Positions 5,050-13,705 of a stretch of 64,000 nucleotides of DNA are shown one piece after another. The first letter of the stretch is position 1; each line of letters begins with the position of its first letter. The notes under the pieces were generated by a model that did not search any database, was not told the DNA's origin, and was given only the letters and a program-made list of their open reading frames with translations. Both the position numbers and the translations under genes were made by a program. The stretch is taken from the NCBI GenBank assembly GCA_948567375.1, contig OX419759.1, forward strand, positions 7,966,744 through 8,030,743, written 5' to 3'. The stretch comes from Lunularia cruciata. Lineage: Eukaryota; Streptophyta; Marchantiopsida; Lunulariales; Lunulariaceae.

Positions 5050-5105
5050 AATCCATTAAATGCCCATAGTTGTGTAGCATGTTTTGAAGTAGGCCATATG
5101 GTAAT
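5050..5105 (-). mobile_element. Left fragment of the older related chromovirus, split by the young insertion
   Basis: This short piece aligns to 7612-7670 of the young element, the region between reverse transcriptase and RNase H. It is the left shoulder of the insertion site. The same element continues without loss from 10749, after the duplicated GTAAT. To the left of about 5050 the homology stops. Confidence 0.7.
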
Positions 5106-5528
5106 TGTAAAAGACCGAAACCGAGGAGAGAAATAGGAGAATGGAAATTCACATTGGGACACTTGAATGAGGGAAAACTCCGAATGCCTAGCATGAGCTT
5201 CGGCCTTGGTATTTATAGGTATCATACAAGTCCCTTGAAGCTTCTCAAGAAGCTTCCTTGAGCCACTTTCTTGGAGTGCAAGCCAAGTTAACTAGGAAGC
5301 TTCTCAAGAAGCTTCCTTCTAGAAGCCGCCTACTTGGCGTGCAAGCTAAGCTAGTTAGAAGCTTCTAGAAGCTTCCTTCTAGAAGCTACCTGCTTAGGGC
5401 GCAAGTTAACTAGTTAGGAAGCTTCCTAAGAAGCTTCTTAGATGCTTCTAGAATATTCTAGGCTATTTTGTCTTATTCTCTACTTCGTAAGCTCAACTAA
5501 CTTCGTCACTAAACTCCATATTGTTACA
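5106..5528 (-). repeat. 3' LTR of the young chromovirus
   Basis: This 423-bp LTR matches 10326-10748 except at two sites (A/G near 5266, C/T near 5390). It contains the same eight GAAGCTTC palindromes. The pol reading frame runs about 36 nt into it, stopping at 5493, so the polypurine tract and the LTR edge are coding. Confidence 0.95.
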
Positions 5529-5541
5529 TATTCCCCCGCCG
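5529..5541 (-). other. Polypurine tract of the young chromovirus
   Basis: Immediately upstream of the 3' LTR on the minus strand lies GCGGCGGGGGAATA, a purine-rich run of the kind that primes plus-strand DNA synthesis. The only interruption is one C. Confidence 0.7.
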
Positions 5542-8510
5542 CTAGTTGGTGACGTCCTCGTTGCCAGTGAAGCTTCGAATTCCTTGATGGCCATCTGTGC
5601 ATTCTGGAGGTGAGAAAGAGGTTCCCATGTAGCATCATGAAGGGGATACCCTTTCCAAAGGACCTTGTACTCCGTATGTTGGTGACGGCCTCGTTGAATA
5701 TGGCGACGCGCAAGGATATGGTCAACTTCATACTCCTCATGATCATTGATAGGGACAGGAAGAGGGGGAAGTTGGACTCGAGAGGAAAAGGAAGAAGGGT
5801 TAGGAACAAAGGGTTTCAACTTGGAAATATGAAAGACAGGATGGATACGTATGTGACAAGGTAAGGCAAGACGATAAGCAACATGAGAGATAATGTGGGT
5901 GATATCAAAGGGTCCTATCCAATTAGGAGCAAGTTTACGAACTTGGGTATCAAGTGGGAGAGGGAGGTTACTAGAGGATAGCATGACTTTATCACCAACT
6001 TCAAAGGTGAGATCACGACGATGATGGTCTGCATATTGTTTTTGGCGATTCTGAGCAACAAGGAGGTGAGATTTGGCTTGTTGGAGAGATTGGGATATAG
6101 TGGTCAAGAATGTAGAAGTATGAGGAACCTGAGAGGGAGGGGGAGCAAGAAGAGAATCTGGAACAAGCGGATCTTGGCCAAAATTGAGAAAGAAGGGAGA
6201 AAATCCAGTGCTTGCCTGTTTGGAATTGTTGTAGGCAAATTCTACAGCTGCAAGACATTCATCCCAGTTGGTATGGTGGACATTGACAAAGGCCCGCAAC
6301 ATATCCTCCAATGTTCGATTGGCGCGTTCGGTTTGTCCATCAGTTTGAGGATGATAGGCCGTGGACAAAGCAAGCTTGGTGCCGAGTATCTGGAAGAGTG
6401 CTTGCCAAAACTTCCCGGTAAATCAAGGATCACGGTCGGAGATGAGTACACATGGCATCCCATGATGCTTGAAGACATTGTCGAAGTAGATTTGTGCTAA
6501 GGTTGGAGCATCCACGGTATCACAGGTTGGTGCCAAGTGGATTTGCTTACTAAGCTTATCCACAAACACCACAATTGGCGTGTGTCCTTGTTTTGTCTTT
6601 GGCAAGGATGTGATGAGATCCAAGCTCACATGCTCCCCACGAGCGGATGGAATGGCGAGTGGTTGAAGGAGTCCACTCGGCTTCTGGTTGCTGGCCTTGT
6701 TCCATTGGCAACTCTCACATGATCGGACAAAGTCTCGAACATCTCGTGTCATGTTGGGCCACCACCATTGGCGTTGGAGGGTGCCCAAGGTCTTGTCCAC
6801 TCCCATGTGACCAGCTATTGGTAAATCATGGGCTTCTTGAAGGCGCACAAGTCGAAGATCACCTTTGGTTGGAACATAGATCTGGTCTGCATGGAATAAA
6901 AGGCCTTCCTTGAAGGAGAAGGTGTTGTACTCCTTGTCGGGTGCTGTTAGACGACCGTGTACCATTTGGAAGAAGGGATCTTGCTGTAGGGCTAACCGAA
7001 ACTCGTTATGAATCTTGGGATCAATTGACACCGTTGTAATTGCTGCCGTGATGAGAGGAAGAGACTTCAAATCAGGTCGTCGTGATAGAGCATCAGGGAT
7101 GACATGGAACCGACCTGGTTTGTACTCAAGTTTGATGTCGAACAATTGGAGTTGCTCTTCCCATCGATGATGTCGACTCTTCATGTGCTCTAGGTGTAAG
7201 GTCTGCAACAATGGCTTGTGATCAGTTCGCATGATCACTTGTTTCCCCAAGAGATAATGCCTCCATACCTTGGTGGCATATACCATTGCAAGTTGTTCCC
7301 GATCCCGAGCAAAGTAATTTCTTTCCGCTGTATTTAGTCGGCGAGACACAAAGGCAATTGGATGTAGTCCATCTGGAAATTCTTGTTGCAACACAGCTCC
7401 AATTGCAAAGTTAGAAGCATCAAAATCAACCACACAAGGTAGTTGAGGATCATATGGTTGAAGAATAGGTCTTGAAGACACCATATGCTTTAACTTCTGG
7501 AATGCTTCTTCATGCTTGGTGGTCCACTGGAAGCTCGAGTTCTTTCCCAAGAGGTCAGTCAATGGTGCAGCCACGTGAGCATAATAGTGGATGAACCGTC
7601 GATAAAAACTGGCCAATCCATTGAATGCTCGTACTTCTGTAGCATCCTTTGGGGTAGGCCAATCAGTAATGGCCTTGATCTTCTCTTCTTCCATCTTGAT
7701 CCCCTCTGATGAGATCTTATGACCCAAGAAGGTAACCTCCTTCTGCCAAAAAGCACACTTTGACTTCTTGCAGTAAAATTTCCACCGTCGTAGTCGTCTT
7801 AGGACTTCTCGCACATGATTCACATGTTCTGCCTCTGTCCTACTATAGATTAAGATATCATCTAAGAACACCACCACGGACCGATCTAATAGTCCCTCCA
7901 ACACTCGATGCATCTGATCCATGAAGACTGCTGGAGCATTAGTGAGTCCAAAAGGTAGAACTCTCCACTCAAAATGTCCATACCTTGTGCGAAAAGCAGT
8001 CTTTTGCACGTCCTCTCCTTCAATAGGAATTTGCCAATAGCCGCTACGAAGATCCAGCTTGGAAAAGTAGCGTGCTCCACTTAGTTGATCAAGCAGGTCA
8101 TCAATCCGAGGCAAGGGATATGCATTCTTCACGGTTTGCTTATTGAGCCCACGGTAATCAATACAGAAACGAAGTCCTCCATCCTTCTTTGGAACAAATA
8201 GTACCGGTGCTCCCCACGGAGAGGTACTATGTCGTATGAAATCCTTCTCCAACAACTCTGTAAGTGTTGTTCGCAACTCCTCCAACTCCTTTGGTGAGAG
8301 CCAATAGATTGGTCTACTCACTGGAGTACTCCCTGGCAATAACTCAATCTTGAAGGGCATACCTCGATCAGAGGGTAATCCCTTTGGCAGATCATCCGGA
8401 AACACATCTGCAAACTCCTGAACTATCCGATCAACCATTGCTTGATGCGGCACTTGGCCCTCCTCAAATTGTTCTTGTGCAATCGGCTTGATCCACACCG
8501 CAAATACAGA

Positions 8511-8690
8511 CTTATCGTCCTCCAAAGCTTGCTCTATGGCTGCTTCATTCACAAACTTCCCTTCTAGGGACTCATCTCTCTTCCAAGCTTGCTCCATGGT
8601 TGCCTTCCTGGCAAACTTCCCATCTTGGGACTCATCTCCCTTCCAGATTCGCTCTATGGCTACCTTCTCAACAAACTTCCCATCTTGGGA
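8511..8690 (-). repeat. Three 60-bp tandem repeats coding a charged linker in pol
   Basis: Residues 147-206, between protease and reverse transcriptase, are three successive 20-residue units starting SQDGKF, SQDGKF and SLEGKF. Each ends in an acidic-basic stretch. The older family member at 11580-11720 has only two units, so copy number changes within the family. Confidence 0.85.
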
Positions 8691-9097
8691 CTGACTATTC
8701 TTAGGTGTCTTACTCAGAGGTGCCAGACAACCTAATCGGAAATTCCTACCTTGGTGTTGTACTTGAATTTGGTGTCGGGTCCAATCAAATTGAACCTTAT
8801 GACATTCAAGCCAAGGTAGACCTAGAATGATATCATAATGTAGAGGTGCCACTACGAACCTCATACACTCCAAATACTCCTTCCCAATCTTGAAGGTAAT
8901 AGGATGCAAGGTGCGGAATGCAGAACCCTTTCTACCATTCGCCATCATCAAACTACTTCCAATCACTGGCCTAATAGGAATACCCAATTCCTTTGACACT
9001 TGCATAGACATGCAATTCTCTGAACTTCCAGAATCAACCAAAATTCTACAACCCCGATAAGATATCATACCTTGCAAGTGAAGCAAACTTGCATAGG

Positions 9098-9176
9098 TCG
9101 AGCCTTCAATCCCATTGGAACTAATCAAGCTCCCAGTAGGCGGCTCGAAATCTCCTACTGGGATTCCTCGTTTCCC
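9098..9176 (-). promoter_or_regulatory. Gag-pol -1 frameshift signal: slippery heptamer plus predicted pseudoknot
   Basis: Reading on the minus strand:
- heptamer GGGAAAC at 9176-9170, split G GGA AAC in the gag frame;
- 6-nt spacer;
- stem 1 of ten perfect pairs (TCCCAGTAGG 9163-9154 with CCTACTGGGA 9140-9131);
- stem 2 of seven perfect pairs (TCGAGCC 9148-9142, in the stem-1 loop, with GGCTCGA 9104-9098).
The gag stop TAG (9157-9155) lies inside stem 1. The pol frame is exactly -1 to gag and is open from just upstream of the heptamer. This is the architecture known for retroviral -1 frameshifting. That it works in this plant is inference. Confidence 0.9.
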
Positions 9177-10054
9177 GGATCATTCCGCTCCACAACCTCC
9201 ACTTGGGCAACTTGTCGAGGTTGTCTATTCTTGAGTGGACATTCAGCAATGCAATGCCCCAACTGGCGACAATAAAAGCAACCTCCATTTTGTCGTAATC
9301 TTTCTCTATCTGCTGTGCCAAGTGGTCTTCGCTGGATAGCATCAATCTCCATTGGTACCGGTTCTTCCACTCGTGGTACGGGTAGGTTTTGTGTAGGTCA
9401 AGGTCGAGACCAAGTTGTTGCAACTAAGGAATCAAAACGCTCAGCCAATTGCATGGCTTCTTCTACGTTATGTGGCTCTCGCATGGTCACCTCCAATCTG
9501 GTTCGTGACTTCAATCCTCGCACAAATCGATCCAGAACTTCACCTTCTTGGATATCTGGAATTTGCATGATGATATTCTGAAATTGTGTGATGTAGCTTC
9601 TCACCGAACCAATCTGCCTCAACTCCGCCAATTTATCTCGTGCAGCTCGGGTGGCATTTATAGTCTGAAATCGACCAAGTATTGCATCCTTGAATTCTTC
9701 CCATGTCAAAATTGGTGTAACAATTTGTCGTTCAGCTCTTTCTACTCGGAATCGCCACCAAAGTTTTGCCACGCCATCCAACTGGCTAGAAGCCAAGAGA
9801 ATTTGTTTCCGCTCGTCTTGAAGATTGGTGGCTTCAAAGTAACGTTCACAGTCAAACACAAAATTCTCCACTGTGCCTGGAACATTCTTGCCTTCAAACA
9901 CCTTGGGTTTCGGAAATCGAATGCGATCTTCTCCATCTCGAACTGGCGCTCTGTCTATCTGTTCTCGTCGTTGCTGGTCTCGTTCATCCAACAATCGAGT
10001 AAGATGCTCGATTTGTTGTTGCATTGCAAGGATAACATCCGGTATTGCGGCCAT
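9155..10054 (-). pseudogene. Gag polyprotein of the young chromovirus, with an internal in-frame TGA
   Basis: The frame opens with ATG at 10054. It has an amino-terminal coiled-coil-like stretch (LTRLLDERDQQRR), then the capsid-type retrotransposon gag domain (about residues 50-200, with the LWWRF and FVRGLKSR blocks). A TGA lies at 9400-9398 (codon 219). The same frame continues to a perfect CCHC zinc knuckle, CFYCRQLGHCIAEC, and ends at TAG 9157-9155. Without the TGA the product would be 299 residues. The same TGA exists in the older relative near 12383, so it may be a family feature (readthrough, or a short capsid-only Gag) and not a fresh lesion. Confidence 0.88.
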
Positions 10055-10312
10055 TGCTACTACCCTAATCCACTACCCTCAATGTATCTAGTTGATTAAC
10101 ACATAGATACAACACGTCCACCGTTCTCCATAAGTCACAACTGGAAGTATCAAGGGTTCCTCTGACACGGTGATCATATGTAGAAAATCCTGCCCAAAGC
10201 GTGAGGTGATGAACTGTGTGAAACGATGCTTTGGTAATATCTGGACATGAGAGTCCCAATGGTTTGGCGGAAGTGGATTTGGTGGTCCATAAATTCCATC
10301 CATCCCATTCCT

Positions 10313-10324
10313 GCTCTGATACCA
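10313..10324 (-). other. Primer-binding site of the young chromovirus, initiator Met-tRNA
   Basis: The minus strand reads TGGTATCAGAGC, the exact complement of the 3' end of plant initiator Met-tRNA. It starts one base inside the 5' LTR end at 10326. Confidence 0.92.
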
Positions 10325-10429
10325 ATGTAAAAGACCGAAACCGAGGAGAGAAATAGGAGAATGGAAATTCACATTGGGACACTTGAATGAGGGAAAACTC
10401 CGAATGCCTAGCATGAGCTTCGGCCTTGG

Positions 10430-10437
10430 TATTTATA
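10430..10437 (-). promoter_or_regulatory. TATA box of the 5' LTR
   Basis: TATAAATA on the minus strand, inside CTATAAATACC. It lies downstream of the heat-shock-element array and about 105 bp from the LTR end, a normal place for retrotransposon transcription to start. Confidence 0.75.
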
Positions 10438-10456
10438 GGTATCATACAAGTCCCTT

Positions 10457-10679
10457 GAAGCTTCTCAAGAAGCTTCCTTGAGCCGCTTTCTTGGAGTGCA
10501 AGCCAAGTTAACTAGGAAGCTTCTCAAGAAGCTTCCTTCTAGAAGCCGCCTACTTGGCGTGCAAGCTAAGCTAGTTAGAAGCTTCTAGAAGCTTCCTTCT
10601 AGAAGCTACTTGCTTAGGGCGCAAGTTAACTAGTTAGGAAGCTTCCTAAGAAGCTTCTTAGATGCTTCTAGAATATTCT
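10457..10679 (-). promoter_or_regulatory. Heat-shock-element array in the U3 of the 5' LTR
   Basis: Heat-shock factors bind alternating nGAAn and nTTCn units. Here eight GAAGCTTC palindromes (GAA-gc-TTC, each two units in phase) occur in about 220 bp. At 10577-10596 four units are in perfect phase (GAA, TTC, GAA, TTC at 5-bp steps). At 10665-10679 there is a perfect TTC-GAA-TTC trimer. Additional TTCTAGAA dimers lie between. The unit nearest the gene starts 20 bp from the TATA box. The 3' LTR carries the same array at 5237-5459. Confidence 0.85.
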
Positions 10680-11848
10680 AGGCTATTTTGTCTTATTCTC
10701 TACTTCGTAAGCTCAACTAACTTCGTCACTAAACTCCATATTGTTACAGTAATGGCCTTGACTTTCTCTTCTTCTATCTTCATTCATTCCAATAAGATTT
10801 TATGACCCAAGAAGGTAATTCCTTTTGCTAAAAGGTACACTTTGACTTCTTGTAGTAAAACTTTTGTTGTCATAGTCATCTTAGGACTTTTTGGACAAGC
10901 TTCATTTGTTCTACCTTTGTCTTGCTATAGATTAAATATTATCCAAAAATACCACCATGTACCAATCTAATAGTCCATCCAACACCTGATGCATTTGATC
11001 CATGAAGACCGTTGGAGCATTAGTGATTCCAAAAGGTAAAACTCTCCACTCAAAATGCCCATACCTTGTGCAAAAGAGAGTCTTTTACATATCCTCCCTT
11101 TCAATGAGTATTTGCTAATAGCCACTGCAAAGATCCAACATGGAGAAGAATCATGCTCTACTCAATTGATCAAGCAAGTCATCAATTCAAGGCCAAGGAT
11201 ATGCATTCTTCATTGTTTGTTTATTGAGCCCACTGTAATCAACACAGAAAGAAATCCTCCATCCTTCATTAGAACAATTAGTACTGGTGCTCCCCAAGGA
11301 GATCTACTATGTCATTTGAAATCCTTTTCCAACAACTCCATAAGCATTGTTTGCAACTCTTCCAACTCCTTTGGTGAGAGTTGCTAGATTGGTCTACACA
11401 TTGGAGTACTCCGTATCAATAATCTTGAAGGGCATACCATGATTGGGGGGGTAATCCCTTTGGCAAATCATACAAAAACACATCCATAAACTTCTAAACT
11501 ATTTGATCAACTATTGCTTGATGAGACTCTTGACTCACCTCAGATTCTCCTTGTGCAATCTGCTTGATCCACACTATGAAAATAGACTTATCTTCTTCGA
11601 AAGCTTACTCTCTGATTGCTTCACTCCCAAACTTCCCATCTAAGGACTCATCTCTCTTCAAAGCTTACTCTACGACTACCTTCCTAACAAACTTCCCATC
11701 TTGGGACTCACTATTCTTAGATTTCTTACTTAGAGGTGCTAGACAACCTAATTGGAAGTTCATACCTTGGTGTTGTACTTGAATTTCTCATCGGTTTCAA
11801 TCAAATGGAACCTTATGATGTTCAAGCTAAGGTAGACCTAGAATGGCA

Positions 11849-12121
11849 TCATAGTATAGAGATGTCAATGTAAACCTCATACACTTCAAATAGTCTTTCC
11901 CAATCTTTGAAGGTAATGGGATACAAGGTATGGAAGGCAGAACTCTTCCTACCATCCACCATCATCAATCTACTTCCAATTATTGGCTTGATAAGAATAC
12001 AAAATTCCGTTGCTAATTGCATGGATAAGCAATATTTTGAACTTCCCAAATCAACCAAAATCTTACAATCACAATCAGATATCATATCTTGCAAGTAAAG
12101 CAACTTGCATAGGAAGCTCAA
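11849..12121 (-). pseudogene. Protease remnant of the older chromovirus
   Basis: A 90-residue open stretch holds CKILVDLGSSKYCLSM. It aligns with the young element's protease ([12 protein letters not shown]), with the catalytic serine changed to leucine. It is an internal slice of a dead polyprotein. Confidence 0.7.
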
Positions 12122-13264
12122 AATCTCCTATCGGCATTCCTCATTTCCTTGATCATTTTGCTTCACAAATTCCATATGGGAAACTTGTTGAGGTCCCCCA
12201 TTCTTGAGTGGATATTCAGTAATGTGATATCCAAGTTGGCAACAATAAAAATAATCACCATTTTGTCACAAATTTTCTCTATGTGCTGTACCTAGTGGTC
12301 TTTGTTGAATTGGATCAATCTCCATTGGTGTCTATTCTTCCACTTGTATCTAGTGTATTAGTAGGTTTTGTGGTGGTCAAGGTTGAGACCAAGTTGTTGT
12401 GACCAAGGAATCAAAGCATTTGACTAACCGCATGGCTTCCTCTAAGTGTTATGACTCTCACATAACTACCTCTAACTTGGTTTGTGACTTCAAACCCCTC
12501 ACAAATAGATCTAGAGCTTCACCTTCCAATATATTTAGAATTTGCATCATGGTGTTTTGGAATTGTGTGATGTAACTCCTTATAGAGCCAATTTGCTTCA
12601 TTTTTGTCAACCTATCTCGTGTAGCTTGTGTGGTATTTATGGCTTAGAATTGACTACTTATTGCACTCTTGAATTTTGCCCATGTCAAGATTGGCATAAC
12701 AAATTTCCGCTCTACTCACTCCAGTCGGAATTGCAACCATATGTTTGCTACTTCATCTAATTGGCTTGAGGCCAATAGAATTTGTCTTTGTTCATCTTGA
12801 AATTTTATTGCTATGATGTAATGTTCACAATTAAACACAAAATTTTTCACTACACCCGAAAAGTTCTTACCTTCAAATACCTTAGGCTTTGAGAATCTGA
12901 TTTGCTCTTCTCCCTCTCAAACTAGTGCTCTCTCTACTTGCTCTTGTCATTGACGGTCTCATTTGTCCAAGAATTGAGTAAGATGCTCAATTTGTTACTA
13001 CATAGGAAGGATAACTTCAAGCATCTCCATCATGGCTACTACTCTAACACACTTCTCTCAATGGATCTAATTTATTAACACATAGATGCAACACGTCCAT
13101 CGTTCTCCATAAGTTACAATTGTAAGTACCCAGAGTTCTTCATCATTTCACAAGGTGTGAAATGATGTTTGGGTAGTACTTGGACATAAAAATCCCAATG
13201 TTTTGGTGGTAATAGATTTGGTGGTCCATAAATTCCATCCATCCAATTTCTGCTCTAACACCAA

Positions 13265-13705
13265 TGTAAGAGACCAAGATTGAGGAGAGAAATAAGAGAA
13301 TGGAAGATAACATTGGGATGCTTGAATGTGTGAAAACTCCAAATGCCTAGAATGAGTTTCGGCTTTGGTATTTATAGGAGAACTTACAATGCACTTAGCA
13401 ATGAGTTCAAATCAAGTTAATTAGGAAGCTTCTCAAGAAGCTTCCTTTTAGAAGTTGCCTACTTGGCTTTCAAGCTAAGCTGGCCAAGAAGCTTCCCAAG
13501 AAGCTTCCTTCTAGAAGCCATCTGAGTGGTATGCAAGCTAAGCTAGCAAGGAAACTCCCCAAGAAGCTTCCTCCTTGCTCGTTACCCAATACTTAGAAGG
13601 TACCAAGTAGCTTCCTAGATTATTTTAGAATATTCTTAGCTAATTTGGCCTATTTGCTATTTTGTTAGTCAAGAGTAACTCATCTATAAGCTCCATATTG
13701 TTACA
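13265..13705 (-). repeat. 5' LTR of the older chromovirus
   Basis: A 441-bp sequence starts TGTAAGAGACC and ends ATTGTTACA, like the young LTR. A mutated primer site (GCTCTAACACCA on the plus strand) precedes it. Five GAAGCTTC palindromes remain, and the GAATATTC half of the three-unit element survives near 13630. The heat-shock-like array is therefore a property of the family. The matching 3' LTR is not in the window. Confidence 0.85.

Follow-up and report, generated by a model that had tools for sequence, protein, structure and literature searches.

A chromovirus of Lunularia cruciata carries, between gag and pol, a slippery heptamer and a predicted H-type pseudoknot that, judged from sequence, very probably act as a programmed −1 ribosomal frameshift signal setting the ratio of Gag to Gag-Pol. 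We analysed the copy that lies in a 64,000-nucleotide stretch of this genome, hereafter the window, together with other copies of its family in the same assembly (566 Mb in 74 contigs, eight of them large at 60–85 Mb). The signal has the following parts, in window coordinates:

9182-9180, minus strand: TGA closing the pol frame just upstream of the heptamer
9176-9170, minus strand: slippery heptamer GGGAAAC, read ccG GGA AAC in the gag frame
9169-9164, minus strand: spacer, 6 nt
9163-9154, minus strand: stem 1 5′ arm TCCCAGTAGG, with the gag TAG inside it at 9157-9155
9153-9149, minus strand: loop 1, 5 nt
9148-9142, minus strand: stem 2 5′ arm TCGAGCC, in the stem-1 loop
9141, minus strand: loop 2, 1 nt
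9140-9131, minus strand: stem 1 3′ arm CCTACTGGGA, 10 of 10 positions Watson-Crick with the 5′ arm
9130-9105, minus strand: loop 3, 26 nt
9104-9098, minus strand: stem 2 3′ arm GGCTCGA, 7 of 7 positions paired with the 5′ arm

The preliminary description of this region had named a GGGAAAC in G_GGA_AAC phase, a six-nucleotide spacer, a perfect 10-bp stem holding the gag TAG, a perfect 7-bp second stem joining the stem-1 loop to sequence 26 nt downstream, and a pol frame exactly −1 to gag that opens just before the heptamer; the heptamer was confirmed to the base and the rest was found as described. The pol frame starts at 9179, right after the TGA and one codon upstream of the heptamer. Because the pol-frame TGA and the gag TAG stand only 22 nt apart, a shift must occur within those 22 nt, and the single canonical heptamer in this overlap is the in-phase GGGAAAC. 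Stimulatory structures of −1 frameshift signals begin 5–9 nt downstream of the heptamer; here the spacer is 6 nt long and the predicted pseudoknot that follows it is beyond chance.

In the proposed mechanism most ribosomes would read gag as far as the TAG. The pseudoknot, lying six bases further on, would stall some ribosomes while GGA occupies the P site and AAC the A site; the two tRNAs would then re-pair one base back, with GGG and AAA, and translation would continue in the pol frame as CGA GGA ATC CCA GTA, yielding a Gag-Pol fusion with protease, reverse transcriptase (RT), RNase H, integrase and chromodomain. That ribosomes slip here, how often they do so and that the pseudoknot forms on the mRNA are what we infer. 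Readthrough of the gag TAG in place of frameshifting would suit a stop codon that lies within a stem, as pseudoknots stimulate readthrough in other elements (PMC2194720 and PMC3835772). A ribosome that read through, however, would stop at a TGA nine codons further on, and a 16-codon frame counted from GGA occurs at 6 of 101 loci. The gag frame does not reach pol, which excludes readthrough as a route to pol by sequence and leaves that explanation practically no weight.

The frameshift signal belongs to a complete insertion, described by the following features:

5106..10748, minus strand: whole chromovirus insertion, 5643 bp, with LTRs and target duplication
10326-10748 and 5106-5528, minus strand: LTRs, 423 bp each, with 2 differences between them
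10749-10753 and 5101-5105: 5-bp target duplication ATTAC
9155..10054, minus strand: gag frame (capsid), ATG at 10054-10052 and TAG at 9157-9155
6426..9179, minus strand: pol frame, −1 to gag, with protease, RT, RNase H and integrase zinc-binding domain
5496..6422, minus strand: remaining pol frame, with the integrase C-terminal part, SH3-like domain and chromodomain

Gag comprises 299 amino acids counted from its ATG and pol about 1228 codons. Profile matches follow one another in the order gag, protease, RT, RNase H, integrase zinc-binding domain, SH3-like domain and C-terminal chromodomain, a set that, with its chromodomain, makes the element a chromovirus. The earlier attribution to a plant chromovirus is borne out by this domain order and chromodomain and by a genome that encodes NAC transcription factors. 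A CCHC knuckle is legible in the gag translation, with a Pfam knuckle match below cut-off, and the integrase core model finds no match because a stop breaks the integrase in this copy. The chromodomain aligns with solved CDYL-type domains, with HP1 among its 39 matches; its Y, W and Y, which would form the aromatic cage of a canonical chromodomain as in the Tcn1 clade, align with CDYL-type domains. One base past the 5′ LTR stands the primer-site-like stretch TGGTATCAGAGC, presumably a plant tRNA-Met primer site. In the Tcn1 clade self-priming replaces a tRNA primer site; a check for self-priming here found no match longer than 7 nt between the LTR and the 36 nt that follow, and the 64-kb window holds no tRNA genes. 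In-frame stops at 9400-9398 (gag) and 6425-6423 (pol) make the window copy dead, with full Gag and full Pol both now beyond its reach; the signal matters for its open-framed relatives.

Several other features surround this insertion. An older and decayed family member (10747-13705 and below 5105) received the young element in its pol, which can be followed to about residue 504 on one side of the insertion and from 504 onward on the other, where the match is short (19 residues, E 5e-4); a deletion removed most of the pseudoknot from this older copy. About 2.8 tandem 60-bp units lie in frame between protease and RT (8525-8692), with matching tandem units in the older copy at 11585-11718, and each LTR holds about 3.3 tandem 60-bp units with GAAGCTTC palindromes (10457-10657 and 5237-5437). 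On the minus strand at 827-2589, fragments with protease-, RT- and RNase H-like stretches, their translations judged by eye, resemble another Ty3/gypsy remnant. The 566-Mb genome gave 15 NAC-domain (PF02365) matches, some of them halves of one gene and together perhaps ten loci; seed plants have many more NAC genes. This small number, the eight large contigs and the aromatic positions of the chromodomain all point to a non-seed land plant such as a liverwort.

We compared the predicted structure with chance and with competing folds. The two helices sum to −28.9 kcal/mol, a value matched by none of 3000 dinucleotide shuffles (best −21.3), and when all 410 canonical slippery heptamers of the window, both strands included, are ranked in this way, the signal comes first, with the runner-up at −15.9. 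A pseudoknot-free fold competes with stem 1, reaching −30.5 over 91 nt, and 8 of 200 shuffles fold as well. Over the 79 nt after the heptamer the free fold stands at −27.3 versus −26.4 with stem 1 forced, a gap of about 1 kcal/mol, and a pseudoknot-free folding program gives stem 1 a probability of 0.63. The same probability is 0.39 with three bases cut off, 0.59 over 100 nt, and 0.94 with the whole spacer cut off, as might hold ahead of a heptamer-bound ribosome. Rfam returned one match for the signal, far below cut-off (E 0.89), and none for the window.

The element family has many copies in the 566-Mb genome. We read 104 loci: 28 of the best 40 of 4639 candidates and 30 of the best 40 of 6197 whose DNA resembles the signal region of one copy or another, 30 of the best 126 of 18429 found through gag with P0013, and 16 of the best 150 of 9479 found through the capsid family PF19259, these last chosen for stop-free capsid matches. 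Removal of 3 repeats of a place and 3 loci without a usable anchor left 98 places. For 58 of the 104 loci, similarity to the signal region was itself the selection criterion, so part of the conservation they show there follows from the choice, and all DNA copies are closely related and come from one genome. When the P0013 and PF19259 searches were examined for other gag families, the 30 and 16 places read matched the family of the window element.

In 97 of the 98 places the pol frame begins one codon upstream of the heptamer, and in 81 of the 98 the gag stop ends a run of six codons counted from GGA. Among the 70 places with at least 680 nt downstream, pol is open for at least 220 codons in 33, of which 32 carry GGGAAAC and one GAGAAAC, versus GGGAAAC in 10 of the 37 places without an open pol. 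Both frames are open over the part covered in 12 of the 70, and all 12 carry GGGAAAC. The window copy, dead and with two stops, might suggest that the two frames are merely an indel accident in a defunct element, but the shared pol opening and the 12 both-open places refute this reading, whose probability is negligible. Ten distinct rows represent the both-open copies: six have whole stems, three lack one stem 1 pair and one lacks two stem 2 pairs. The expectation that copies with open frames keep both heptamer and stems thus held for the heptamer (32 of 33) and in part for the stems, four of the ten both-open rows having one or two broken pairs.

Copy age confounds the heptamer contrast between open and closed pol. 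We sorted by identity to the window copy those 84 of 91 distinct rows that have all stem columns. Of the 45 rows at least 95% identical, 43 have GGGAAAC, 39 an intact stem 1 and 41 an intact stem 2; in the 29 rows at 84–95% these counts are 8, 15 and 19, and in the 10 rows at 70–84% they are 0, 4 and 7. Older copies thus mostly lack the heptamer, with GGGAAAC present in 8 of the 39 rows below 95% identity. The positions that often change are the first G, which follows CA in many copies, and the last C, which precedes G, whereas the five middle positions are kept in 82 to 84 of the 84 rows. We infer that this pattern fits decay of methylated CHG and CG sites; the loss of the heptamer in older copies fits such C-to-T decay but would also fit a weaker signal in the old elements.

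Constraint on the coding sequence was measured at third-codon sites, with sites of the methylation-decay type (CHG/CG) left out. Across 101 loci, third-codon variation averages 0.0157 over the 16 sites of the pol-only part of the pseudoknot and 0.0546 over 230 sites of downstream pol (permutation p 0.010). Because many copies had been picked by likeness to the signal region, the test was repeated on 43 gag-picked places, where variation is 0.0045 versus 0.0239 (p 0.023); the 16 places picked by capsid family give p 0.039 and the 27 picked by P0013 alone give p 0.22. The signal is the least variable of 78 windows in the whole set but not so in the gag-picked sets.

Two further routes to Pol were considered. 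In one, the heptamer and pseudoknot would be incidental and pol would have its own start, reached by internal entry or re-initiation, at the earliest ATG of its frame (9068-9066, minus strand, 86 nt past the gag stop). This ATG is upstream of the protease active-site motif, and a protein without the 37 preceding residues would keep its protease; however, the codon varies among copies (9067 is T in 85 and C in 12, 9066 is G in 90 and A in 8, some of this maybe decay), the sequence upstream of it is no more variable than that downstream, and less variable at third-codon sites, and the heptamer and structure are far beyond chance. We consider a separate start quite improbable. A minor spliced or edited mRNA that puts gag and pol in one frame has parallels, since splicing joins the frames in Ogre elements (PMC6317226) and alternative splicing sets Gag supply in EVADE and BARE1 (PMC12786077), but here the gag knuckle and the protease both lie near the 22-nt overlap and leave scant room for an intron, and we hold such an mRNA to be very unlikely.

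For the frameshift signal, covariation among copies would offer a further line of evidence. In 61 distinct rows, 95.2% of pseudoknot cells are paired with a score of 0.153, each reached by 0 of 500 shuffles, although relatedness alone can produce such pairing scores. The rival nested stem has no comparable excess in the same 61 rows, 187 of 500 shuffles reaching its paired cells and 108 of 500 its score. Five pseudoknot pairs changed on both sides, which 18 of 500 shuffles reach and which relatedness and methylation-like decay confound. The main covarying pair, at two CHG sites, is G-C in 30 rows, A-U in 13, G-U in 10 and unpaired in 8, and the most variable pair of each stem falls at CHG or CG sites. 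Pair 19-41 also shows A-C mismatches (9 of 91 rows), and within age classes the association at the covarying pairs is weak (p 0.05 or weaker). Pseudoknot covariation among copies is modest.

We used related proteins to look beyond this genome. A gag search with the unchanged 305-amino-acid frame of one copy found 19 proteins, and a profile search with those gags found 15 more among 8000 candidates scored. In the first set of 20, query included, all end in Gln. Over the 35 homologous gags, several of which are near duplicates, the last residue is Gln in 29. In 28 the chain closes with Gly/Glu-Asn, then three or four residues, then Gln and the stop: 21 of these have (Gly/Glu)-Asn-x-x-x-Gln, and the other seven (P0019, P0142-P0146, P0149) have Gly-Asn-Gly-x-x-x-Gln. 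Seven fit neither ending: P0012 (Gly-Lys), P0147, P0150, P0151, P0152, P0153 and P0154, among which P0147, P0151 and P0152 are without a knuckle and probably cut. Only 6 of 120 pol-type proteins end in Gln and none of the 120 has either gag ending. The linker from knuckle to end varies from 10 to 45 residues among the fitting gags (27 measured), so the shared gag end is not simple overall likeness. Before the signature stand Ser (13), Pro (5), Gln (9) or Arg (1) in all 28; a codon ending in G, required by the heptamer, exists for each of these four residues and for many others. Gly-Asn can be encoded GGA AAC, and the Glu-Asn of most (Gly/Glu)-Asn homologues would need the less usual G_GAA_AAC, for which G_GAU_UUU is a precedent of a kind (PMC5009743). 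The gag-end signature suggests an old, conserved slip site, with slip site and frames in the homologues deduced from their protein ends.

Two of these proteins, P0017 and P0018, come from the streptophyte alga Klebsormidium nitens. Our RT tree placed 46 of the 87 rows with enough RT sequence, taken mainly by rank, and the window element joins P0021-P0026 in a seven-row clade (SH-aLRT 100). None of the other six rows of this clade has gag in the same protein, whereas a separate 18-row clade with seed-plant rows (Tanacetum, Prunus, Tagetes, Ulmus) has gag fused in 9; gag missing from a predicted protein is no proof of separate frames. Searches for gag relatives confirmed none of 54 pattern stretches in IMG/VR and none of 154 stretches in GTDB genomes, and gave no result in plasmid records. 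As a tentative proposal, which we regard as possible but doubtful, the G_GGA_AAC slip site and pseudoknot may be an ancient cassette inherited within a chromovirus lineage that extends from streptophyte algae to non-seed land plants, perhaps sharing its origin with the sushi/PEG10 signal of vertebrates, and lost in seed-plant chromoviruses when gag and pol were joined in one frame; the Gly/Glu-Asn...Gln-stop ending, seen in gags down to about 30% identity, would be its trace at the protein level, with G_GAA_AAC as the variant heptamer of the Glu-Asn branch.

The layout has counterparts in known systems. Retroviral and luteoviral signals consist of G_GGA_AAC, a spacer and an H-type pseudoknot; the window signal shares this layout and differs in host kingdom and element class, and its long loop 3 is nearer the type of coronavirus IBV. 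G_GGA_AAC is among the heptamers most prone to slipping with mammalian ribosomes (PMC5009743). The mammalian gene PEG10, derived from a sushi-ichi-related Ty3/gypsy element, likewise has −1 gag and protease frames, GGGAAAC and a pseudoknot, with a 5-nt spacer (PMC2800197) compared to 6 nt in the window element with its 26-nt loop 3; PEG10 is a domesticated animal gene, whereas the present signal sits in a plant element that has many copies, a full pol and a chromodomain. For PEG10 a −1 frameshift is also described in PMC3406341. By size and layout (5643 bp, 423-bp LTRs, Gag of 299 amino acids, pol of about 1228 codons), the window element resembles SM-Tcn1 of Selaginella, a Tcn1 clade chromovirus of 5704 bp with 440-bp LTRs, a chromodomain and separate gag (323 amino acids) and pol (1238 amino acids) frames, and the word frameshift has 0 occurrences in the text of the SM-Tcn1 paper (PMC2864245).

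Seed-plant chromoviruses (CRM, Galadriel, Reina, Tekay) have the same domain order as the window element. The preliminary description held that many plant Ty3/gypsy elements use one continuous frame, and this agrees with PMC6317226, PMC3059260, PMC3605345 and PMC5009743. Intact CRM and Beta vulgaris chromoviruses have a single gag-pol frame (PMC3059260 and PMC3605345), as does SM2-Galahad (PMC3350952); in contrast to the single frame of Galadriel/Galahad, pol of the window family is shut upstream of the heptamer in all but one of the places read. Some plant groups have two frames, SM-Tcn1 among them, and chromodomains with the aromatic positions occur among plants in non-seed plants and algae only (PMC6317226 for the groups and the chromodomains). 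A 2003 survey by Gao and others, as relayed in a 2016 review (PMC5009743), counted only two plant types with separate frames, both with pol at +1. Our searches of open-licence literature turned up no plant chromovirus for which a −1 signal with a pseudoknot had been described. The mechanism is classical, and its occurrence in a plant chromovirus lineage seems new.

The means by which plant LTR elements produce an excess of Gag over Pol are established in few cases, and the chromovirus described here, with its canonical −1 pseudoknot signal, provides a clean, testable one. It also suggests that plant elements have used the retroviral solution for longer, and more widely, than the record shows. 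Should the gag-end signature derive from a conserved slip site, the C-termini of gag proteins could be used to find such elements in protein databases.
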